64,000 bases of DNA from the NCBI GenBank assembly GCA_945875845.1, contig CAMCMB010000034.1:1-64000 (forward strand), read 5' to 3'. The position numbers and the translations under genes were made by a program. Every line of letters begins with the position of its first letter. Position 1 is the first letter of the stretch. The stretch is from Pirellula staleyi DSM 6068 (lineage in GTDB: Bacteria > Planctomycetota > Planctomycetia > Pirellulales > Pirellulaceae). The notes below the pieces were generated by a model. The model ran no database searches. It was given only the letters and a program-made list of their open reading frames with translations, and was not told the origin of the DNA. Shown in pieces: positions 450 through 53,447 of the stretch.

Positions 450-3400
450 ATGAGCTTAATCACGCGAATCGCCGCCCTTGTTCTCTCGTGCACATGCTCG
501 CTCGAAGCGTGGTCGCAGTCGAATGCGGAACTTGAGTTCTTCGAAACGACCATACGACCCATTTTGGCAAATCAATGTTTTCAATGCCATGGGAAAGACA
601 CGCAAGAGAATGAGCTCAGGCTGGATTCGCTGCAAGCTATGATCCAGGGTGGTGACGCAGGGCCTGCCATCGTGCCAGGCCATCCGGACGAGAGTTTGCT
701 ATACCGAGCAGTGGCGCATTCCGGCGAACTTCAAATGCCGCCGAAGAAAAAAATCACGAGTCAAGAAATTGCATCGATTCGTCATTGGATCGAGATCGGT
801 GCACCGTGGCCAAAGGACATTGGTAACCCAGATGCTCGAAAGGATTCTTGGCAAAAACACTGGGCCTTTCAAAACATCATGAAACCCGCTGTACCCGCCG
901 TAATCAACGAGTCGTGGTGTTGGAATCCGATCGATCGGTTCGTCTTGAATGAGCTGGAGTTGCGTTCGCTGCAACCATCGAAAGAGACCGACCGAAGAGC
1001 GCTGATTCGACGTGTTACTTTGGATATCACCGGCCTCGTACCAAGCCTTGACGAGATCGAGCAGTTCGCAAACGATCCTGCTCCCGACGCGTATGAGCGC
1101 CTGGTGGATCGACTGCTTGCGTCCCCCGCGTATGGCCAGCAGTTCGCTCGCCAGTGGCTTGACGTGGCGAGGTACTCGGACACCAAAGGCTATGTCTATG
1201 CGCGCGAAGAGCGGTTTTTTGTGCATGCGACTGCCTATCGGGATTGGGTCATTCAGGCGTTTAATGACGACTTGCCCTATGATCGTTTTTTGCAATTGCA
1301 AATCGCAGCGGATCAAGATGCCTCGAAAGACCCCGCTTCGCTCATCGCGATGGGTTTCCTGACACTAGGTCGCCGTTTTCTAGGTGTCACACACGACATT
1401 GTGGATGATCGCATCGATGTGGTGACACGCGGAACCATGGGGCTGACCGCCTCCTGTGCTCGATGCCATGACCATAAATTCGATCCCATTCCGACCGCCG
1501 ATTATTACTCCTTGTATGGGGTGTTTCAGAACAGTATGGAGCGTCAGGTTGAGCTTACCCCCTCAGCACGCCGCCAAGAGGCAGAGTCGGATTTCGAAAA
1601 AGAGCTTCGGAAGCGTGTCACCAAACTTAAGGAAAAGACACTATCGAGCCGGACCGAAGCTGCGCAGCGAGTTCGGCAACGATTTGCAGACTACCTTTTT
1701 TCCCAGTCCGAATTGAGTCGATATCCCGAAGAAGGATTTGATCAGGTACTTGAGACGACCGATATCATCCCGGCGATGGTTCGCCGGTGGGAGAGTTATC
1801 TAGCAAGTCTCGATCGTGGTAGCGACCCCATATTCGGTCCTTGGTTTCTTTACGCCTCGATTCCCAGTGAACGATTTGCCTCGGAGTCCCCGAAAGTTCA
1901 TAGTGAGATTGCCGCTTCACCGAAATTCAATTCCATCCTTGTGGATGCATTGCGAACGCCCCCCACGTCGCTGCGCGAGGTGGCAGATCGCTATGGCGCT
2001 GTGTTTCAGAGTGTCGATGCCGAGGCCAGCACTTCGGCGAACAACGAACTGCGACAAGTCTTGTACGGCCCCAACGCGCCCTGTGAAATTCCAGATGAAG
2101 AAATCGTAACCACGGAAACGTACTTTGACTCGGCCACTTGCACCGAACTCTGGAAACTGCAAGGAGAAGTCGATCGATGGCGATTGCAGAACCGTCAGCA
2201 AGCCAGCGTTGCAGTCGCGTTGTTTGACCGAGATCGGATGGTCGAGCCGAGAGTCTTCAAGCGAGGCAATCCCGCGACGAAAGGTCAAACGATTCCACGG
2301 CACTTTCTATCTCGGTTTGCATCGCTTTCGAGTTCCTCGTTTCAACATGGAAGCGGTCGTCGCGAGTTGGCGGACGCAATTGTTCACCCGGATAACCCGC
2401 TCACGGCTCGCGTATGGATCAACCGGATTTGGCAACATCACTTTGGCGAGGGTTTGGTTCGGACGCCAAGCGATTTCGGGCTAAGAGCAGAACAACCAAG
2501 CCATCCTTTGCTTTTGGACTGGCTAGCGAGTCAACTCCTGGAGAATGGCTGGAGTACGAAAACCATCCACCGGCTCATCCTGACATCTGCTACATACCGA
2601 CAGAGTATTTCAGGTCCAGCGGATGCGAGCGTTCTCGATCGCGCCATTCAAGTGGATCCGGAGAATCGCATGCTGTGGCGAATGTCCCCTCGGAGACTTC
2701 GCTTGGAAGAGATTCGCGATGCTCTTCTAACCATCTCCGGCGATCTCGACCTAAGTCCCACCAACAAGCCGACGGAGATGTTTGGAGCCAAGGACGATAA
2801 CCATCGACGAACCATCTTCGGCTTGGTCGACCGGCAATTCTTGGCAGGTACGTTGCGGATCTTTGATTTCGCAAACCCAGATTTGCACATCGCCAAACGA
2901 AGCGAAACGTCTGTGCCTCAACAGGCTCTCTTCTTTATGAATCACCCATTTGTTGCGTCGCGATCGAAGTCGCTCGTTCGTCACCTTGGGTTACCCACGG
3001 GCAACTTCGACCGGCAGCGATGGATAGTCGACCTTTATGGCGCCGTCTTGCAACGCGTCCCCTCCTCATTGGAGATAGAACAAGCGATTCGGTTTCTTGA
3101 CGATTCCAAGGTGAACGAAGAGAGTCGACCTACGAAGGAATCGATGGCGTGGAAGTACGGTTACGGGGAAGTCGACGAGTCCGTCGGTAAACTCAAGGAC
3201 TTCAAGGAATTGCCGCACTTCACGGGTAGCGCATGGCAGGGAGGTCCAGCCTATCCGGAAAAGACGTTGGGTTGGGTCCAACTGACAGCCGCTGGTGGAC
3301 ATCCTGGTAACGATCAAAAACATGCTTGCGTTCGGCGGTGGGTAGCACCTGATTCGATGGAGATCCGTATTCGATCACGGGCAATGCATGAACCGGAGGT

Positions 3401-3713
3401 TGGGGATGGTGTTCGATTCCGGATTCTGTCTAGCCAGCATGGATTATTGAAGTCGGTGAATCTGAAAGCATCGCAAGAGGAAATGGACGTAGAATCCATT
3501 CGAGTCGAGACAGGGGACACGATCGATTTCGTAGTCGATATCTTCGACGGGCTCAATAGCGATCAACATCTTTGGGCGCCAGAAATTCGATCTGCGGAAC
3601 TTGTTTGGAATGCGAGTCGAGACTTTGGCGGCCCCGTGCAACCAAAATTAAATTCGTTCGAACAACTGGCTCAAATCTTGATGCTGACCAACGAACTCAT
3701 CTTTGTGGACTGA
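450..3713 (+). CDS. PSCyt1-DUF1549-DUF1553 (PSD1) exported planctomycete cytochrome protein with inserted domain
   Basis: An exported protein of 1087 residues. A signal peptide occupies about residues 1-22. A PSCyt1 cytochrome-c-like domain follows, with heme motif CFQCH near residue 43. DUF1549 spans about 160-370, with a second CxxCH (CARCHDH) near 335. DUF1553 begins near 635 (NPLTARVWINRIWQHHFG) and ends with the usual LTNELIFVD. Between the two parts of DUF1553 (about 913-1050) sits a beta-rich insert with the motif HEPEVGDGV, related to a segment of the protein encoded at 5275. The family is nearly restricted to Planctomycetes and relatives; its reaction is unknown, and heme binding is inferred from the motifs. 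The DUF1501 gene follows 18 bases downstream, the usual pairing. Confidence 0.93.
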   Translation: MSLITRIAALVLSCTCSLEAWSQSNAELEFFETTIRPILANQCFQCHGKDTQENELRLDSLQAMIQGGDAGPAIVPGHPDESLLYRAVAHSGELQMPPKKKITSQEIASIRHWIEIGAPWPKDIGNPDARKDSWQKHWAFQNIMKPAVPAVINESWCWNPIDRFVLNELELRSLQPSKETDRRALIRRVTLDITGLVPSLDEIEQFANDPAPDAYERLVDRLLASPAYGQQFARQWLDVARYSDTKGYVYAREERFFVHATAYRDWVIQAFNDDLPYDRFLQLQIAADQDASKDPASLIAMGFLTLGRRFLGVTHDIVDDRIDVVTRGTMGLTASCARCHDHKFDPIPTADYYSLYGVFQNSMERQVELTPSARRQEAESDFEKELRKRVTKLKEKTLSSRTEAAQRVRQRFADYLFSQSELSRYPEEGFDQVLETTDIIPAMVRRWESYLASLDRGSDPIFGPWFLYASIPSERFASESPKVHSEIAASPKFNSILVDALRTPPTSLREVADRYGAVFQSVDAEASTSANNELRQVLYGPNAPCEIPDEEIVTTETYFDSATCTELWKLQGEVDRWRLQNRQQASVAVALFDRDRMVEPRVFKRGNPATKGQTIPRHFLSRFASLSSSSFQHGSGRRELADAIVHPDNPLTARVWINRIWQHHFGEGLVRTPSDFGLRAEQPSHPLLLDWLASQLLENGWSTKTIHRLILTSATYRQSISGPADASVLDRAIQVDPENRMLWRMSPRRLRLEEIRDALLTISGDLDLSPTNKPTEMFGAKDDNHRRTIFGLVDRQFLAGTLRIFDFANPDLHIAKRSETSVPQQALFFMNHPFVASRSKSLVRHLGLPTGNFDRQRWIVDLYGAVLQRVPSSLEIEQAIRFLDDSKVNEESRPTKESMAWKYGYGEVDESVGKLKDFKELPHFTGSAWQGGPAYPEKTLGWVQLTAAGGHPGNDQKHACVRRWVAPDSMEIRIRSRAMHEPEVGDGVRFRILSSQHGLLKSVNLKASQEEMDVESIRVETGDTIDFVVDIFDGLNSDQHLWAPEIRSAELVWNASRDFGGPVQPKLNSFEQLAQILMLTNELIFVD

Positions 3714-44630: not shown

Positions 44631-46190
44631 ATGACAACCCCAAAACCTAAAGCCAATAGAATTCGCGAACGCAAACGGCGGTGGCTAACGGTCACTTTAC
44701 TGACAACAATAGCCCTTGTCGGCGTTAGCGTCGCAGCAGCAGTCCTTTCAGGTCGCGGCCCTGTTTCGTTTTACCCAAAGGAGAAGAACGAGGCATCTGG
44801 GGGAAAAGTCGAACTTCCTATGGTTATTGCAAAAGTCGTACGACCCAAGAAGGAATCGACAGTTGCAATAACGATGGACCAAATAGCGTCCGTCGAGCCG
44901 TTTTATCGGGCCGACTTGAGAGCAAGAGCGTCAGGACTCGTAAGATCCGTCAACCATGATATAGGCGAAAAAGTTACGGAAGGCGAGGTGCTTATTTTGA
45001 TCGATGTACCTGAATCCGATCAGGACGTTTCCAGATGCGAGGCCATGATTTTGCAAAAGCAGCAGGAGCTGAAGGTATCGGAGGCCAAACTCCAAGATGC
45101 GAAAGCAGGCAAAGACGTCTCCGCAGCGACAATCAAACAGAAACAGGCCGACGTCCAAGCCGCGACGGCAACTCGAGACTTGCGAAAACGAAAATTTGAA
45201 CGCTTTCAATCACTTGCTGAGCGAGGTTCTGTGGTTGGGAGTATCGTCGAGGAGGAAGAGCGAGACTATTTAGCAAGCGAAGCGAATGTTTCAGCTGCCA
45301 ACGCAAACGTTGAGAGGGCTCGAGCGGATTATGCCGAATCGGAATCAAAAATCGATGCAGCCGCTGCCGATATACAACTGAAGTCCGCACAGATTGAGGT
45401 AGCTAGGAAAGATCTGGATCGGGCAAAAGCCATCCTAAATTATGGGAAAATCATTGCTCCTTTTGATGGCGTAGTTGTTCGAAGGTCGGTTGACCCCGGC
45501 TCCTTTGTTCAAAACGCGACGACTGGGACCAGCGAAGTACTCATTTCGATAGCAAAGGTTGATCTCGTAACCGTAAGTGCAAAATTCCCTGATTCCGTTG
45601 CGCCGTCCATCCAGAACGGTATGCCTGCCTTGGTGACTGTCGATGATCTTCCTGGTGTGACCATATCGGCAAAGGTCACGAGGTTTGCACCGACGCTTCA
45701 AAATGCAGACAGAACGATGAGGATCGAAGTGGATTTGTTCAACGGTGATGATGCGGATTACCTTCGCATGACCAAGGAATTCGGCTCGAGTCGATTTTCA
45801 AAAGGCTCCGCCGACAAGGTTCCAGTACGGGCATTCCCAGCCGACGCGTCAATCTCCCGAAGGTTGATTCCAGGAATGACCGGGAGCATCAAGTTGACTA
45901 TCGGTAACTTTGGTGATTCGTTCGTCCTACCAAGCGTATGTGTATATTCACGAAGTGGAGTCAGTTACATCCTCGTGGTTCAGGATGGGGTGACAAAGGA
46001 ATTGCCTGTTCGTGTGCAACTCAACGACGGAAAGACTGTACTCATTGCAATTCTAGCGAATCGACAGCAAAGCGATGGTATTCGGTCGGAGGTATCCTCC
46101 GAGTTAAAGGGCGACGAACAGGTGGTTGTCGCACGGCAACTAGAAATTGGTACAGATACGCCCGTGCAATCTGGGTTAACTGATTGGTAA
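44631..46190 (+). CDS. RND efflux periplasmic adaptor (HlyD/MFP family)
   Basis: 519 residues. An N-terminal membrane anchor (about 20-43) is followed by the lipoyl-like half (RADLRARASGLVRSVNHDIGEKVTEG), a long helical hairpin (about 125-262, rich in Ala/Glu/Lys heptads) and the second lipoyl half (IIAPFDGVVVRRSVDPGSFV). A beta-barrel and membrane-proximal domain complete it. The adaptor links the RND protein to the outer-membrane factor encoded 30 bases downstream. The hairpin is long for the family, in keeping with direct contact to a TolC-type channel. Confidence 0.92.
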   Translation: MTTPKPKANRIRERKRRWLTVTLLTTIALVGVSVAAAVLSGRGPVSFYPKEKNEASGGKVELPMVIAKVVRPKKESTVAITMDQIASVEPFYRADLRARASGLVRSVNHDIGEKVTEGEVLILIDVPESDQDVSRCEAMILQKQQELKVSEAKLQDAKAGKDVSAATIKQKQADVQAATATRDLRKRKFERFQSLAERGSVVGSIVEEEERDYLASEANVSAANANVERARADYAESESKIDAAAADIQLKSAQIEVARKDLDRAKAILNYGKIIAPFDGVVVRRSVDPGSFVQNATTGTSEVLISIAKVDLVTVSAKFPDSVAPSIQNGMPALVTVDDLPGVTISAKVTRFAPTLQNADRTMRIEVDLFNGDDADYLRMTKEFGSSRFSKGSADKVPVRAFPADASISRRLIPGMTGSIKLTIGNFGDSFVLPSVCVYSRSGVSYILVVQDGVTKELPVRVQLNDGKTVLIAILANRQQSDGIRSEVSSELKGDEQVVVARQLEIGTDTPVQSGLTDW

Positions 46191-46220
46191 TGAAATTAAA
46201 GAGGCAGGAGGCCTTCGCTA

Positions 46221-47831
46221 ATGAGAAACTCAATTAAATCCAACGCAGGATTCGCGTTTGCAATTACCTTTGCGCTGGCTGGCTGCCGATCGACTACCGC
46301 AGACCAGACACGTAGGTATATCGCGTTCAAGCCACCCGCATCACAATCTTCCGTTGGGTATTCGATAGCTTCAAAAAGCGATGCTGTTCAACTTGTGTCT
46401 CACGTCGTCGTCGACGGTCAAGATACAAATAACACGTTGAAAAAGTCCATTGCGCAGGGTGCTGTCGTGGAAGCTCTCGAAACGACTATTCCTCAACAAA
46501 ATTCCGCACCATTCGATGGCAGCGGCCGCGTCCGACCAGCGTATTCTGAGTTGGTTGAATTGCCGATCGACCTACCGACTGTTATACGTCTTGTCGATGC
46601 CAACAGCCCAGCAGTTAGCCTTGCTCAAGCCAGAGTGCGTGAAGCACAAGCGCGACTCGCACGCGCGGAGGTTCAGTGGCTTCCAAACTTAACCGCAGGT
46701 GTTGCTTACAATCGTTTTGATGGTCAAACACAGAACCAGAGAGGAGATGTATTCGGCGTATCAAGATCCAATTTGTTCGCGGGCGGCGGTCCGTCGCTCT
46801 CACTTGACCTGTCTGAAGCAATCTATCGTCCACTAGTCGAACGACAACAAGCGTCTGCCGAACAGTTGCGTGCACAGGCCGTATGCTTGGGATCCGAGCT
46901 GGAGGCAGTGCTAGCATATTTGGATCTTCTGCAAGTCTATAGTTCGATTGAAATCAATGCTGATACCACATCAAAAGCAGAATCGATGTTAACTGCCGCT
47001 GAGAACGCTAAGGATGCGAAACTGGATCGGACCGCAGGCGACGTCAACCGAGCGAAAACCGAAGTGCTTTTTAGAAGGATCGAGCGAATTGAGTTGATTG
47101 GCAAGACTGGGGCGGCAAGTGCACGTTTGGGAAAACTGCTTTTGTTGGAACCAAATGTAATGCTGGTTCCTGCGGATACCGCGGTTGTTCCAATAAACTT
47201 GATCGACCCTCGTTCCACGATGGACGAACTTGTATCGACTGCGATTCGCAACAGACCCGACTTAGCGGCTATGCGCAATCTGATTGGTGCCGCTTGGGCG
47301 AATGTTAGAAAACAGGAGGAAGGGCCCCGACTTCCAAAGTTGGGGGTAACTAACCAGACTGGAGCGTTTGGAGGAGGTTTGAATAGTGATCTCGGTAACT
47401 TTGATTCGCGAAACGCTTTGAGTGCTCAGCTATATTGGGAGTTAAAAAACCTTGGTTTTGGCAATCGATACGAGATCAATGAGCGAAGAGCAATTTTGAG
47501 TCAGGCACGGATGCAGTTGGTTGAATCTCAAGCAAGAGCCTGCGCCGAAATCGTCGAGGTTGCGCAGTCTGCCGCGGCAAAGTACGAAAGTCTTGCACTT
47601 GCCGAGCAAGCCATCCAACAAGCAACCGAACTATACCGAATCAACAAGGAGGGAACACTCAACGTTGTCGATACCAAGAACTTGTTCGACGCGTTGCGTC
47701 CATTGCAAGCTATTCAAACGCTGAATCAAGCACGCCAGAACTATCTGAGCTCAATGGTTGAATACAATCGAGCTCAGTACCGACTGTACACCTTAATTGG
47801 AAACAATTTAAATCTTGCCCTGGCAAACTAA
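46221..47831 (+). CDS. TolC/OprM-type outer-membrane efflux lipoprotein
   Basis: 536 residues. The signal peptide ends in a lipobox (LAGC near residue 22), typical of OprM-type channels. After a roughly 85-residue non-conserved lead comes the OEP core: DLPTVIRLVDANSPAVSLAQARVREAQARL and, in the second half, STAIRNRPDLAAMRNLIGAAWANVRKQEEG, giving two helical-hairpin repeats. It ends the five-gene regulator-kinase-pump-adaptor-channel unit, so the export apparatus is complete. Confidence 0.92.
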   Translation: MRNSIKSNAGFAFAITFALAGCRSTTADQTRRYIAFKPPASQSSVGYSIASKSDAVQLVSHVVVDGQDTNNTLKKSIAQGAVVEALETTIPQQNSAPFDGSGRVRPAYSELVELPIDLPTVIRLVDANSPAVSLAQARVREAQARLARAEVQWLPNLTAGVAYNRFDGQTQNQRGDVFGVSRSNLFAGGGPSLSLDLSEAIYRPLVERQQASAEQLRAQAVCLGSELEAVLAYLDLLQVYSSIEINADTTSKAESMLTAAENAKDAKLDRTAGDVNRAKTEVLFRRIERIELIGKTGAASARLGKLLLLEPNVMLVPADTAVVPINLIDPRSTMDELVSTAIRNRPDLAAMRNLIGAAWANVRKQEEGPRLPKLGVTNQTGAFGGGLNSDLGNFDSRNALSAQLYWELKNLGFGNRYEINERRAILSQARMQLVESQARACAEIVEVAQSAAAKYESLALAEQAIQQATELYRINKEGTLNVVDTKNLFDALRPLQAIQTLNQARQNYLSSMVEYNRAQYRLYTLIGNNLNLALAN

Positions 47832-48175: not shown

Positions 48176-49168
48176 TCATGCGTTCATAACAGAGATGCGC
48201 AAATGCGAGTCATAATGAGCCGTTGCCACCATGTTGCTCTCCAGATGAATGTCCATGTCCCGCGCCAACGACGGCAACTTGAATCGATGGATTTCTTTTT
48301 CTTGCGAATCGTTGAAGAACAATAACAAGCCTCCGGTCGACCCACCCGAAATGCCGACTGCGGTGCCATCCTTTAACCACTGCACTCGCCATACCAGTCC
48401 GCCGGGTATTCCCTCGCATGCATGCGACTTACGCAGCGCCCCGTCCTCCCAGCCAAACCGCAGTATCAATGGTTCATGAACCGCACCGAACGGATTCGTG
48501 GCTTTGTGGGTTCCGCCTGCAATCAGCTCCTTTCGCTCCGCATGATAGGCCAACGATCGAACTCCGCCATACTCTGCCTGCTGGCCTTTGTTCTCCGTGT
48601 AAAGTGGTGTTCCCTCGATCGTTCGCTCAAGTTTTCGGTCTGCAACGTTCCAAACGTGAATCTTGCCGAGCAAATCGCCGGTGATCAGTTGATTTCCACT
48701 TGGATGAAACTCAACGCTGTAGATGTGTCGCTCATGTCCGCCCCATTCGGCGATTTTCTCGCCGCTGGCCATGCTCCACAGCTTGACCAACATATCGTTC
48801 CCAACCGATGCAAGCGTGGTTCCATCTGGCGAAATAGCCACGCCTCGAATCCAACCTGAATGCGCGTCGGACTTGCGCACCAAAGCCGGCGCCTCGGCTC
48901 GTACGGCCCACCACATCAAGCTGCCTTCACAACCACCCGAAACAAGCTGCTGACTATCGGGACTATAACACAATGCATGTACCCAGCTTTCATGCCCCTT
49001 GAGAACGGTTTTCTCTCCACCTGGAATACGCCACAATTGCAAGGAAAAATCCTCGGAACTGCTTACGGCTTGTTGACCATCTGGCGAGATCCGGCATGCG
49101 ATCAAGGGTCGGTCGTGTTTCCACTGATGAACCACATGCGTCTTGGTGATATCGATGGGTAGACTCAC
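48176..49168 (-). CDS. WD40-repeat protein
   Basis: 330 residues forming about seven WD40 blades, for example ACRISPDGQQAVSSSEDFSLQLWRI, WVHALCYSPDSQQLVSGGCEGSLMWW and GVAISPDGTTLASVGNDMLVKLW. No signal peptide or membrane segment is seen, so it appears cytoplasmic unless exported otherwise. Its start lies one base after the stop of the DUF1501 gene, so it is the last gene of a three-gene operon whose other two products carry export signals. In Planctomycetes, WD40 genes accompany DUF1501/DUF1549 pairs, sometimes fused to the cytochrome domain; the joint role is unknown. Confidence 0.9.
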   Translation of the reverse strand: MSLPIDITKTHVVHQWKHDRPLIACRISPDGQQAVSSSEDFSLQLWRIPGGEKTVLKGHESWVHALCYSPDSQQLVSGGCEGSLMWWAVRAEAPALVRKSDAHSGWIRGVAISPDGTTLASVGNDMLVKLWSMASGEKIAEWGGHERHIYSVEFHPSGNQLITGDLLGKIHVWNVADRKLERTIEGTPLYTENKGQQAEYGGVRSLAYHAERKELIAGGTHKATNPFGAVHEPLILRFGWEDGALRKSHACEGIPGGLVWRVQWLKDGTAVGISGGSTGGLLLFFNDSQEKEIHRFKLPSLARDMDIHLESNMVATAHYDSHLRISVMNA

Positions 49169-49169
49169 G

Positions 49170-50471
49170 CTAGGTTAGCACTTTCCAAACAGGGGCAGCG
49201 GCTGGATCTGCAATCGGCAATTGTCGTCCATCGACCGCAATCGATTGCGTCGAATCGATCCCTACGGCCTGGAGGTACGTATGAAAAAGGTCTCCATGAT
49301 CGACTTTCCCATCGACCACTTCGGTCCCCTCGTCGTTCGTCTTGCCATAGACTGCCCCTCGAGCGACCTTGCCACCTGCCATCACGATCGACCAAGCCTT
49401 TGACCAGTGATCGCGACCGTAATACAAATTGATATTGGGAGTACGGCCGAACTCGCTCAGGACAACCACGAGAGTTTTCTCTAGCATTCCGCGATCGGAC
49501 AAGTCCGCAACGAACGTAGCAAACGCTTTATCAAACTCGCCGAGTTGCTCGATGTGAAAGTTAAAGTTGTCGTTGTGGGTGTCGTAGTTGGAATGCGTTA
49601 CTTGCACAAACGAGACGCCGTTCTCCAACAATCGTCGAGCCATTAGGCACTGTCGACCGAGGTCGTGTTTGCCGTATCGGTCTTGGTCGGCTTGTGGCTC
49701 TTTGGAAACGTCGAATACATCGCGGCGCTCCATCAATCGCAGGGCTTGCTCGTAACTGTGGGTGTAGGCGTCGGTGATGGCCGTTCGTCGTCGCGTCAAG
49801 AATTCTGCGTTTAGCCGACGCCGAAAGTCGTGCCTTCGCAATTCAGCCTCATCGTTGATTCCATCCGGTTTGGTCGTATTGGGAGGGGGTTTGGATCCCC
49901 CCAACGAGATGCTTGAGTATTTTGGGCCCAGGTACGCTGCTTCGTTTCCTTTGCCTCCGCCGCCACCCGGTGTGACCACAATATGCCCGGGCAGCCCGCG
50001 GCTTTCGTCGTTAAGCATGCGAGCCGCGACCGCACCGATTTGCGGATACTCTGCCGCCGCAGTTTGGCGACGCCCCGTCAGCATCATATAAGCACCCTTG
50101 CCGTGATCGTCCTCTGAGGTATTGACACCTCGCAGCACACAAAGGTGATGCATCTGCTTGGCCGTGTAGGGGAGCAGATCGCTCACATGCGTGCCAGGAA
50201 CGGAGGTTGGAATCGAACGACAGGGGCCACCCGTTTTTGTGCCTGGTTTGGGATCCCAGCTTTCCAGTTGGCTCAGTCCGCCATGCATGTTGAAGACAAC
50301 GAGGCGCATATCTTGGGCCTTGAGTTGCTCCGCGGCAAAGCCGGTCGTGAGACTGCCTAACCCACCCGCGATCGCAGTGCCCGCAACGCCGCTCAGACCA
50401 GAGCGTTGCAGAAATTGACGACGATTCAATCCATGTTCTCTCGAACCGCATGCATAATGTGCTAGGCCCAT
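49170..50471 (-). CDS. DUF1501 family exported protein (second copy)
   Basis: 433 residues with a twin-arginine-like signal (LNRRQFLQRSGLSGVAGTAIAGG). Family landmarks are VVFNMHGGLSQLESWDPKPG, LPGHIVVTPGGGG, VTHSNYDTHNDNF, VVLSEFGRTPNIN and GRDHWSKAWSIVMAGG. It differs clearly from the copy at 3732 and belongs to another subgroup. It lies 24 bases after the DUF1549/DUF1553 gene and one base before the WD40 gene, forming an operon. Confidence 0.93.
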   Translation of the reverse strand: MGLAHYACGSREHGLNRRQFLQRSGLSGVAGTAIAGGLGSLTTGFAAEQLKAQDMRLVVFNMHGGLSQLESWDPKPGTKTGGPCRSIPTSVPGTHVSDLLPYTAKQMHHLCVLRGVNTSEDDHGKGAYMMLTGRRQTAAAEYPQIGAVAARMLNDESRGLPGHIVVTPGGGGGKGNEAAYLGPKYSSISLGGSKPPPNTTKPDGINDEAELRRHDFRRRLNAEFLTRRRTAITDAYTHSYEQALRLMERRDVFDVSKEPQADQDRYGKHDLGRQCLMARRLLENGVSFVQVTHSNYDTHNDNFNFHIEQLGEFDKAFATFVADLSDRGMLEKTLVVVLSEFGRTPNINLYYGRDHWSKAWSIVMAGGKVARGAVYGKTNDEGTEVVDGKVDHGDLFHTYLQAVGIDSTQSIAVDGRQLPIADPAAAPVWKVLT

Positions 50472-50495: not shown

Positions 50496-53447
50496 CTAAG
50501 GGTAAACTCGAAACTCGGAACTCGTCAACAATCCCCAAACTAACTCTTGTGCAATAGCCACCTTTTTGTCGGCAGCATTGGCAAGTTGTTCGCCAACCCA
50601 TTGCAGTTCTTGTGCAGTTGGCTCACGCGACAGCAAGGATCGATACATTAATTGAACGGCTGCCATCGCGTCGGACTGTTTGACGATCAAATCCGTCACG
50701 TTGCTGCCGCTGGCCGCTGACCACTGATAAACAGATCCGCCGTTCGCCATGAACAACGCTTGATCCGGAGACGCAAAGAACTCGTCGCTTGTTTGTCCAA
50801 CGCCCGATGCATACAGATTTGCAAACACGTCCACGTTCGGACGGAGTTTGTCAATCGCTTGGCGAGTGGCTTGCAGGGTTCTAGCCTCCCGTTGCGCGGG
50901 CGTTGCGTCCGCCGCCAATGGAGCTTGCTTTTCAAGCTCTGCCACCTCGGCGGCAATATAGTTATCGAGGACCTTGGTTGCCCTCAAGATGCTCAGACCC
51001 AACTGTTCTGGAGACAACGCTCGGAAGGGAGCGGCAGCCAAATTTTTCTGCCTGTCTTCCAGCACTTGTTGAAATGCAGTTCCGCATGTGTCGATCGCTT
51101 GTTGAATGGCAGTCGCCTTGACCTGAACGGTTTGTTCGGCTTGCTCGGCCAATTTTGCGGCGGCGACTCGCATCGTCTCCATGGATGTTTCTTCGGCGGA
51201 TAACGCGAGCAATTTCTGTGATTGGGCCATGAGTTCCGCGTCGATCGAAGTCAATTCCTTCTCAAGAGCGGATTGGGTCGCTTGGCGCGTTTCGCGACTG
51301 GCAGCAACAGCTTGTTTGGCCGATTCAAGCGAGTCGGTAGCGACAAGCGATGTAGACTTATTGAGAGAATCGAATGTGGTTTGAAGCAAAGCGAGTTCAG
51401 CGGCGAGACTTGTCCGCTTCTCTTGGGAAACGGTTTTTTTGGACTCGATGGAGGCTAATAAGGCTTTTGCTTCCGCCACAATCGGTTGGTGCTTGGACTG
51501 CTGCGCCATGTAATTGGCGACCACAACTTTTTGTTGATCGCGAGCTTCCGCAGCAAGCCGATGCTCGGATTCTTCCTGAGACACCGTTTGCGAAAGAGTG
51601 ATCCAAGATTGAACGTTCGATAGGGCAACCATACTTTTCACAGTCAAGATATGTTCGGACTGAGCTGCTTGCCATTTCACTCGTGATGCAAGAAACGTTT
51701 GATCGGCGATTGTGAGCGATTGCTCAATTGGCTTCAAGCGATCGACGACTTCTTGGATCTTGCCTCGCTCGGTTTCAAGAGCGACATTTTGGGTATCTCG
51801 TAACGCGGTTGCGTCGACGACCCCTTTTTCGCTCGCGGGTTGAGCCGCTTTGGATGCATCGGCTTTCGCCTTCGCGGTGGTAATCGCTTGAACGAGTTCA
51901 GGATCGTCGCCAGGTGCCAATGTCTTGGCTTGTTCTAGTTTGCTGGCCGCTTCCTCAAGCAGAGCGATCCTGGTGTTCAGGTCTGCTCGCAGTTTGTCAG
52001 CTTTGATAAGCGCCGCATTCGATTCATCGAGCTTCTTTTTAACATCATTGAATGTGGCTTCGGCTTTGTCGAGATCGGCACGAATTGCAACACGTTCCTT
52101 TTGTACCGCTCGCCAGGCGGTTTTCGAATCATCCATCCCTTGCTTGGCAGCTTCCGCAGCCGATGCGAGTTGCGGGAGTTGCGAATCCATCGCTTGTTTA
52201 CGAGCGTTGATTGCATTGGTCAGGTTATCGACCGCGTCCTTGGGCAAGTTCAAGACGGTGCCGTTTCGGAGCGATGATTCGACTGGCAACCGACTGCCGC
52301 GTTGATAGACTTCGCTCAAAGCAATTTGTTCGACCAAAGAGCGCAGGTCGTATCCGGTTGCAACAAACGACTGGGTGAGTGCAGTCAACAGCTTAGGGTT
52401 GGATGGCGGATTATCCGCATGATGCATGTCAAGCGGGTGCACGATTCCTCGGCCCGTCATCATGGCCCAAACGCGATTGGCCCAATTCTCTGCGAACGCT
52501 TGGTTTGCCTTCGACAACTGAGTCACCAGGGAAGCGCGGCGACTCGAGGATGGTGGCTTGGGCGCACCTTCGAGCGAGTCGGGCGAGGGTGTTGCTTGGT
52601 ATCTTTGATCGGGCACTTCGTAGGTTTCGATTTGTTCCGTTCCGCCTGGGACTCGCGTTCCCGTTCGAAACAGTACACCCTTGTCGAACACGGATTCAAA
52701 GGTTGCGTCACCCGAGGCGCGTTCGGCGTAGATTTGAATTTTTTGCTCGGCACCTTTTTCGTCCTTGAATTTCGCTTCCGCCAGTGAGCTTGGGGACACA
52801 AAGGCAAGCAGTCCGTGATAGTCGATTTGGAGATAATCATCCACATTCGGATGATCGTGACATTGAGCACACTGCATATCGCGACCGAAGAAAACTCGCC
52901 CTATATCGCGAGATACGGCGTGCGAATCCCCCTCGCGCTCCAAAAAAAAGCGCTGCTGAGCACGCTGGGAAGGATTCCACCATACGCTTGCGATGGATTC
53001 CTTCACGATGGCGTCGAGAGGCTTGTTTTCGTCGACAACCTGCCTGAGGTAACTGAGCCACTTAGCCCGATCCACGTATTTATTCGGTCGACGTTGCATC
53101 AGTGTTTTGTCGAGCCAATCGACCATTCGTTCTCGGTGAAGAGGGTCGTTTAGGAAGCGTTTTACCCAGCGAGGCCAACGATCATCCGGCGAGGGGTCCG
53201 CTAGGAATTCATCGAGTTCAAGCTGGGTCGGGACCACAAGCCGCAAATCGAGCGACAATCGACGAAAAAGCTGACTTTCGGATTCACGAGGGGAGATCAA
53301 AGCGTCGAAATCTCGGTCGACGAGGACGTCGATCGAGGTTGATAGACTTGTTTGTCCATGAACCGACGGCGGAACGCTTAGGTGGCTGGTGAGCAATAAC
53401 CCGAGGGTCAGCATACAACGAAACAACAGGCTTTGGCCGAGTCTCAT
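50496..53447 (-). CDS. DUF1549-DUF1553 exported cytochrome-type protein with a 395-residue coiled-coil insert
   Basis: About 983 residues from ATG 53447, the first ATG, which opens a clear signal peptide (MRLGQSLLFRCMLTLGLLL to VHGQ); the longer frame begins at TTG 53501. DUF1549 spans about 35-290 with heme motif CAQCHDHPNVDDY near 205. DUF1553 begins near 325 (NQAFAENWANRVWAMMTGRG) and breaks off after SEVYQRGSRLP. From about 400 to 795 the sequence is almost entirely charged, Ala/Gln/Glu/Lys-rich heptads predicted as long coiled coil. DUF1553 resumes with FRALSPEQLGLSILRAT and ends at SSEFRVYP. PSCyt1 is absent. The insert could form a stalk or oligomer. First gene of the operon with DUF1501 and WD40. 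Confidence 0.9.
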   Translation of the reverse strand: MRLGQSLLFRCMLTLGLLLTSHLSVPPSVHGQTSLSTSIDVLVDRDFDALISPRESESQLFRRLSLDLRLVVPTQLELDEFLADPSPDDRWPRWVKRFLNDPLHRERMVDWLDKTLMQRRPNKYVDRAKWLSYLRQVVDENKPLDAIVKESIASVWWNPSQRAQQRFFLEREGDSHAVSRDIGRVFFGRDMQCAQCHDHPNVDDYLQIDYHGLLAFVSPSSLAEAKFKDEKGAEQKIQIYAERASGDATFESVFDKGVLFRTGTRVPGGTEQIETYEVPDQRYQATPSPDSLEGAPKPPSSSRRASLVTQLSKANQAFAENWANRVWAMMTGRGIVHPLDMHHADNPPSNPKLLTALTQSFVATGYDLRSLVEQIALSEVYQRGSRLPVESSLRNGTVLNLPKDAVDNLTNAINARKQAMDSQLPQLASAAEAAKQGMDDSKTAWRAVQKERVAIRADLDKAEATFNDVKKKLDESNAALIKADKLRADLNTRIALLEEAASKLEQAKTLAPGDDPELVQAITTAKAKADASKAAQPASEKGVVDATALRDTQNVALETERGKIQEVVDRLKPIEQSLTIADQTFLASRVKWQAAQSEHILTVKSMVALSNVQSWITLSQTVSQEESEHRLAAEARDQQKVVVANYMAQQSKHQPIVAEAKALLASIESKKTVSQEKRTSLAAELALLQTTFDSLNKSTSLVATDSLESAKQAVAASRETRQATQSALEKELTSIDAELMAQSQKLLALSAEETSMETMRVAAAKLAEQAEQTVQVKATAIQQAIDTCGTAFQQVLEDRQKNLAAAPFRALSPEQLGLSILRATKVLDNYIAAEVAELEKQAPLAADATPAQREARTLQATRQAIDKLRPNVDVFANLYASGVGQTSDEFFASPDQALFMANGGSVYQWSAASGSNVTDLIVKQSDAMAAVQLMYRSLLSREPTAQELQWVGEQLANAADKKVAIAQELVWGLLTSSEFRVYP

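Follow-up and report, generated by a model that had tools for sequence, protein, structure and literature searches.

A duplicated helical hairpin predicted within the DUF1553 domain of a planctomycete PSCyt2 protein: a possible two-armed spacer of the cell envelope

Combinations of PSCyt and PSD domains are found in Verrucomicrobia, according to passages of a paper that describe PSCyt-type genes as numerous and stated in 2017 that the functions were unknown (PMC5615132); the word 'coiled' is absent from its main text. In Rhodopirellula baltica, the domains PSCyt2 (DUF1549) and PSD1 (DUF1553) occur 41 times each according to excerpts of another paper, which also report a stress-linked gene that has both (PMC2754498). 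DUF1501 is listed among the neighbours of planctomycete WD40 genes in part of a third (PMC5587647), and signal peptides are mentioned for DUF1501 clusters in part of a fourth (PMC4452313). Among the openly licensed papers listed for PSCyt2/PSD1, DUF1553, DUF1501 and WD40, no title or abstract opening describes an insert of the kind considered here, which lies in a PSCyt2/DUF1553 protein encoded on the first 64,000 nucleotides of contig CAMCMB010000034.1 (assembly GCA_945875845.1) of Pirellula staleyi DSM 6068, hereafter the window. The insert, about 400 residues within the DUF1553 domain, very probably consists of two antiparallel helical hairpins that share one unbroken central helix. The gene and the two parts of the interrupted domain are:

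50499..53447, minus strand: PSCyt2/DUF1549-DUF1553 gene with inserted arms, 983 residues (open frame, translation, Pfam)
52284..52523, minus strand: DUF1553/PSD1 part before the insert, residues 309-388 (Pfam E 9.8e-23 for the whole protein)
50499..51032, minus strand: DUF1553/PSD1 part after the insert, residues 806-983 (adjoins the first part in insertless homologues)

The insert and its two predicted hairpins

A preliminary description of the window, made from the sequence alone, had noted that DUF1553 is split by about 395 residues at 51050-52235, and profile boundaries bear this out, placing the insert at residues 389-805 (51033-52283), 417 residues of which about 400 form the rod. Residues 309-388 are the best of two PSD1/DUF1553 stretches recognized by Pfam and cover profile positions 7-88 of 244. 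In insertless relatives both DUF1553 parts lie within one frame, separated by at most 15 residues (23 frames, profile boundaries); the insert is therefore an insertion, as the homologue survey proposed in that description confirms, and its origin by gene fusion is rejected. Insert lengths in 207 frames, near duplicates included, fall into three classes with nothing between them: at most 15 residues (armless, 23 frames), 238-305 (one-arm, 14) and 398-422 (two-arm, 170). Because the query for the collections was the full two-arm protein, these proportions are not natural frequencies. The length is exactly 402 residues in 74 of 128 distinct two-arm inserts, and the window's clade (at least 11 relatives) has about 15 extra residues that align to the base of helix 1, outside the rods.

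The structure of the window protein predicted by AlphaFold2 from an alignment of 64 of 66 non-redundant two-arm sequences (two were dropped because contig ends cut them) has a predicted local distance difference test score (pLDDT) of 91.0 and a predicted template modelling score (pTM) of 0.83. The insert is modelled as three helices, 108, 184 and 97 residues long, with a turn of five residues between each and the next (374-481, 487-670 and 676-772 in model numbering, to which 29 is added for protein numbering). The predicted features are:

51918..52241, minus strand: helix 1, residues 403-510, 108 residues, outgoing half of arm 1 (AlphaFold2, indel map)
51903..51917, minus strand: turn 1, tip of arm 1, residues 511-515, family consensus approximately LPxDxEL (AlphaFold2, indels, conservation)
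51351..51902, minus strand: helix 2, residues 516-699, 184 residues, shared central helix (model, covariation)
51336..51350, minus strand: turn 2, tip of arm 2, residues 700-704 (AlphaFold2, indel map)
51045..51335, minus strand: helix 3, residues 705-801, 97 residues, return half of arm 2 (AlphaFold2)

At a helix rise of 0.15 nm per residue, these helices are about 16, 27 and 14 nm long. Helix 2 comprises the return half of arm 1 and the outgoing half of arm 2, and it covaries with both other helices, though only weakly with helix 3. This middle helix is unbroken, so that the first half of the insert folds back to the body and the second half continues past it; to judge from this feature and from the confidence of the model, the two arms would point in opposite directions. 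The strongest hydrophobic period is 3.46-3.52 residues in each predicted helix (family profile of 27 inserts), in keeping with the long heptad region that had been recognized by inspection; the antiparallel coiled coil proposed with it is supported by prediction.

Solved structures were compared with the model for geometry alone. The dynein motor 8pqw aligns with model residues 435-535 (2.3 Å over 100 residues), the same region of dynein in 5nug aligns with 611-739 (2.5 Å over 129), and the Smc5/6 arm 8i4x aligns with 558-775 (3.0 Å over 218); the dynein region that aligns to both hairpins is presumably the stalk hairpin. These overlays fit antiparallel hairpins. A search of solved structures with a profile of the whole alignment matched 281 sequences; the 60 listed are coiled-coil proteins, among them myosin, SMC and tropomyosin, and all match in the insert region. 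Foldseek gave no match in the PDB at E<=0.001 for this model or for that of a one-arm relative described below, and since helices fill the re-aligned lists, the body fold is poorly probed; a profile search of solved structures with the N-terminal body gave a single match, at E 0.48.

Insertions and deletions (indels), covariation and internal duplication were evaluated without the model, on alignments that overlap those used for the model and are thus not fully independent of it. Indels per substitution number 0.0013, 0.0021 and 0.0004 in helices 1-3, compared with 0.015 and 0.011 in the body parts, 0.097 in turn 1, 0.050 in turn 2 and 0.063 at the base; their positions cluster at 510-516 and 700-707, with a few scattered starts within helix 2. 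Mean pairwise identity in the helices is 16-22%. On these alignments, the arms drift in sequence but hold strictly to their length. Of all nine-residue stretches of the insert, the tip of arm 1 has the highest conservation (2.32 bits, compared with a mean of 1.44); conservation around the two turns is 2.09 and 1.58, and at the centre of helix 2 it is 1.11, the lowest of the three regions.

Covariation was computed for 122 inserts below 90% identity over 390 of 391 columns and 633 antidiagonals. The column dropped, 512, is a gap in 117 of 128 inserts; if it is kept, eight of the top 50 pairs belong to a single-arm pairing and none to the hairpins. Among separate antidiagonals, i+j=1027 (z 3.6) and i+j=1412 (z 2.8) score highest, at or near the approximately 1026 and 1404 of the model, and hairpin 1 accounts for 19 of the top 100 pairs (1.7 expected). 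Covariation thus argues strongly for hairpin 1 and weakly, through the antidiagonal peak, for hairpin 2. An earlier run with 64 sequences had its top antidiagonals at 929, 1012 and 1002, which correspond to the exact register of no model and are at most suggestive.

The two halves of the insert match each other in a profile comparison at E 3.4e-16 over 181 columns, other registers giving E 0.0005-0.005. The self-offset was scored on the 27 sequences, of 53 non-redundant two-arm ones, whose insert has 402 residues; the best is 190 (z 5.5), and it is still best when the turn motifs are left out (z 3.6). Heptad periodicity is rejected as the source of this internal repeat, since 190 is not a multiple of seven and remains the best offset without the turn motifs. 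By these comparisons, the halves of the insert are in-register duplicates of each other.

Relatives with one arm or none, and the operon

For one relative, L031, whose insert has 251 residues, the one-arm label rests on an AlphaFold2 model (pLDDT 88.7, pTM 0.86), in which a hairpin of 94 and 109 residues is followed by a 24-residue stub; the other members are assigned by insert length and profiles. An alignment of 11 of 12 one-arm and 13 of 20 armless sequences was made of these classes. With profiles of the two halves of the two-arm insert, nine of the 14 one-arm inserts match the first half nearly over its full length and better than the second (L031, L085, L128, L131, L132, L133, L134, L220 and L221). 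Pairwise alignments of five one-arm genes place the start of the best match at the base of arm 1 in each; the match ends within the first half of the partner in L128, L031 and L133, and at 318 and 365 of 442 in L085 and L096. The longer one-arm inserts (286, 293 and 305 residues) may keep part of arm 2. The inserts of L089, L090 and L094, marine-type sequences of 242 residues, hardly match either half profile, which may mean that their arm has an evolutionary past of its own or has diverged strongly. L096 (5959-8619) has the 305-residue insert on a contig that is labelled Verrucomicrobiia, whereas the titles of the other loci found with it name planctomycetes; mis-binning, transfer or a different arm layout may be the reason.

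A tree of the body alone, unrooted and built from the 83 rows left of 119 when sequences were thinned at 85% identity (53 two-arm, 12 one-arm and 18 armless), requires nine changes of arm label. The one-arm gene L128 (9173-11578) adjoins the two-arm gene L027 in this tree with starred support and has likely undergone a recent loss of most of one arm; a WD40 match was not found downstream of it. Within the window's own genome there are at least three armless paralogues (L115, L116 and L117), each followed by a DUF1501 gene and two of them also by a WD40 gene, and a profile of the insert (five rows) has no other match in that genome at E<=1e-6. The window itself contains a second gene (450-3713, a 1087-residue frame) that matches the PSCyt2/DUF1553 protein in two separate pieces, one of many paralogues among the 108 matching stretches found by a search of the genome with that protein. 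In a sample of 294 genomes of the phylum (E<=1e-45, two candidates scored per genome), 21 had matches, and frames that match along most of the two-arm protein belong to the window's class only; in four matched genomes of other classes, frames of 535-700 residues match solely before the insert. A genome of the same genus has the gene as two adjacent matches in separate frames (G436:C89:5247-8037), perhaps through a frameshift or assembly error.

The frame of the window protein runs on the minus strand from an ATG at 53447 to a last codon at 50499, with its stop at 50496-50498. Upstream of the split domain it has the following features:

53355..53447, minus strand: N-terminal hydrophobic stretch, likely Sec (general secretion) signal peptide, residues 1-31 (sequence inspection)
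52791..53297, minus strand: PSCyt2/DUF1549 domain, residues 51-219 (Pfam E 1.7e-23)
52857..52871, minus strand: CAQCH, a CxxCH c-type heme motif, residues 193-197 (alignment conservation)

Both domains pass their Pfam cut-offs (PSCyt2/DUF1549, 84.1 bits against 29.8; PSD1/DUF1553, 81.2 bits against 28.5). At E<=1 the only Pfam families are PSCyt2, PSD1 and DUF4214, so that neither PSCyt1, whose absence had been noted from the sequence, nor an ABC-type ATPase head is among the matches. C, Q, C and H of CAQCH are invariant in 64 of 64 aligned sequences and A is present in at least 90%, and the protein may bind heme through this motif. By a simple hydrophobicity threshold, 96 of 105 PSCyt2 homologues have a hydrophobic stretch at the N-terminus. 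The protein is probably exported, and the earlier view of an exported heme-motif protein stands as probable.

The gene is followed after 24 nucleotides by a DUF1501 gene and this, after a single nucleotide, by a WD40 gene, the tight operon that had been described; a promoter scan found one site, compared with 3.1 in shuffled sequences. The two downstream genes are:

49170..50471, minus strand: DUF1501 gene, 433 residues, with a twin-arginine translocation (Tat)-type RR motif (Pfam DUF1501 E 4.7e-99)
48176..49168, minus strand: WD40 beta-propeller gene, 330 residues, no signal peptide recognized (Pfam WD40 E 1.6e-32)

The DUF1501 protein is similar to alkaline-phosphatase/sulfatase-type families (PF01663, 24.9 bits with a cut-off of 23), and its NCBIfam Tat signal score of 16.1 bits is just below the cut-off of 16.7; RRx[FL] is present in 96 of 98 DUF1501 proteins. 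Among loci with at least 2300 nucleotides downstream, near duplicates included, DUF1501 is the next gene in 83 of 84 (54/55 two-arm, 10/10 one-arm and 19/19 armless) and WD40 is the third in 79 of 84 (52/55, 9/10 and 18/19, respectively). As both genes accompany all three arm classes, the operon is independent of the arms, and the association of the arm with the WD40 gene that had been suggested is rejected: WD40 is as regular without an arm as with two. None of 66 WD40 proteins (four of these rows being fragments, one of them without its N-terminus) has a hydrophobic N-terminal stretch, which indicates that the WD40 protein is probably cytoplasmic and unlikely to touch the arms. Three two-arm loci (L079, L103 and L082) have DUF1501 and no WD40 match downstream despite sufficient room, from which it appears that the WD40 gene can be lost or moved. 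Beyond the WD40 gene, on the other strand (44631-47831), lies an efflux gene pair, membrane-fusion-like and outer-membrane-channel-like, as judged by eye from the translations.

A proposed two-armed spacer and its alternatives

The computation supports the insertion, the helices, the two hairpins, the duplication, the fixed length and the operon. In the explanation that we favour, and consider reasonably probable as a whole, a hairpin would have been duplicated and placed in a loop of DUF1553. The chain would leave the body, run outward for about 16 nm as helix 1 and turn back at the LPxDxEL tip; the 184-residue helix would then pass the body unbroken, extend on the other side and turn, and helix 3 would return over about 14 nm, resulting in a two-armed, T-like molecule that spans about 27 nm with the heme-motif body near its middle. 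Arm 1 is the better conserved arm, resembled by most one-arm relatives, and arm 2 would be optional. The molecule may serve as a periplasmic spacer or scaffold, its body paired with the operon's DUF1501 protein, exported through Tat, and its arms, chiefly the conserved tip of arm 1, fixing the distance between units or to another component of the cell envelope; the pairing, the partner and the location are what we infer from the motifs and the operon. A spacer or scaffold whose tip touches a partner is favoured because the arm 1 tip is conserved and arm length is strict while the sequence drifts, and the spacer role taken by itself is offered tentatively.

Several observations weigh against this explanation. 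Five of the 14 one-arm inserts have no clean match to the first half: L102 matches both halves equally, the match of L096 is broken into pieces, and those of L089, L090 and L094 are weak. Covariation for hairpin 2 is weak: it supplies two pairs in the top 100, where 1.7 would be expected, and 14 in the top 500, where 8.4 would be, and its peak is eight positions off the modelled register. Pairs of the single-arm class number six in the top 100 (3.5 expected) but 14 in the top 500 (17.3 expected). The fold-comparison Z scores of 9-13 are in a range that the tool calls common for long helices, and the opposite direction of the arms would depend on the presumed straightness of the central helix. 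Since the operon persists where the insert is missing, its role does not require the arms. Finally, coiled coils such as these can form intermolecular bundles, which lie beyond the reach of monomer prediction.

This last point leads to a rather unlikely alternative, that the helices are an oligomerisation domain through which two or more molecules assemble by bundling of their arms, as a dimer or filament, the monomer hairpin being only a part of that assembly. Surface coiled coils often self-associate, and the fixed length and near absence of indels would also suit intermolecular packing, whereas the covariation in hairpin 1 fits intramolecular antiparallel pairing, although a domain-swapped partner would look alike. 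Similarly improbable is that the arms are a docking or specificity element for one partner at the tip of arm 1, distance being irrelevant: this would account for the tip being the most conserved stretch of the insert and for the resemblance of most one-arm relatives to arm 1, but the strict length of arms that drift in sequence would be unneeded for a mere docking site.

The preliminary description had proposed one antiparallel SMC-like arm, which would be about 30 nm long with its tip expected near residue 606. Entry and exit at the same point of a folded domain, the long heptad region and the excess of single-arm pairs in the top 100 are as such an arm would have them, and SMC-type models of NCBIfam match with E 0.44 and 0.88, which is chance level. 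However, the model has no turn at 606, which lies inside the unbroken 184-residue helix, and finds two hairpins instead, with tips near 513 and 702. Position 606 is in the least conserved of the three regions compared and is no indel hot spot (an insertion at 614 occurs in two of 63 relatives), and the antidiagonals 1205, 1213 and 1221 rank 366, 229 and 575 of 633. Each duplicated half has its own turn, and the model of L031, with its one arm, has a single turn of this kind and a stub. The single arm is rejected on the model, the indels and the covariation antidiagonals, and we regard it as very improbable. A spacer that lacks defined structure, being of low complexity, disordered or in slow drift, which the Ala/Gln/Glu/Lys-rich composition and the low identity in the helices might suggest, is scarcely credible given the high model confidence, the heptad period, the covariation and a rate of indels per substitution in the helices that is about 5 to 38 times below that of the folded body; disorder, named beforehand as contrary to an arm, did not appear in the AlphaFold2 models of the window protein and of L031, which are ordered.

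If the two-armed spacer is extended further, one planctomycete class might build a lattice or bridge of fixed spacing in its envelope from a two-armed heme protein. Its arms would determine how far apart neighbouring heme/DUF1501 units or membranes lie, and arm number (none, one or two) would be a switchable design parameter as lineages gain or lose whole hairpins. This is speculative, and we think it unlikely.

Comparison with known systems

Relatives with no arm, one arm and two arms in the same gene trio form a natural series toward the function of a large unexplained family. Rigid arms of fixed length that are gained and lost while the body and operon are conserved offer a structural handle on the PSCyt-type family. 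As it occurs in matching operons, the series also cleanly exemplifies how proteins evolve by duplication of a hairpin with a fused helix.

The closest relatives are the planctomycete PSCyt2/PSD1 (DUF1549/DUF1553) proteins, which have the same two domains and the CxxCH motif, whereas the window protein has about 400 residues of duplicated hairpin inside DUF1553; its adjacent DUF1501 gene is a habit of the family here and not part of the published definition. The arms of SMC and Smc5/6 proteins resemble the insert in being antiparallel coiled coils that leave and re-enter one folded domain, and the Smc5/6 arm overlays arm 2 (3.0 Å over 218 residues), but the window protein would have two shorter arms on one body, has no ATPase head that was found, and is probably exported. 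The dynein stalk and the arm of seryl-tRNA synthetase are single antiparallel hairpins; chains of dynein motors and of seryl-tRNA synthetase are among the structural matches to the hairpins of the window protein, yet each has one arm, in contrast to the duplicated hairpin with its fused central helix predicted here. In spectrin, one helix runs unbroken into the next repeat and the three-helix repeats form a linear chain. The shared unbroken helix is thus a feature that spectrin has in common with the insert, but spectrin does not have a pair of two-helix hairpins on a globular body.

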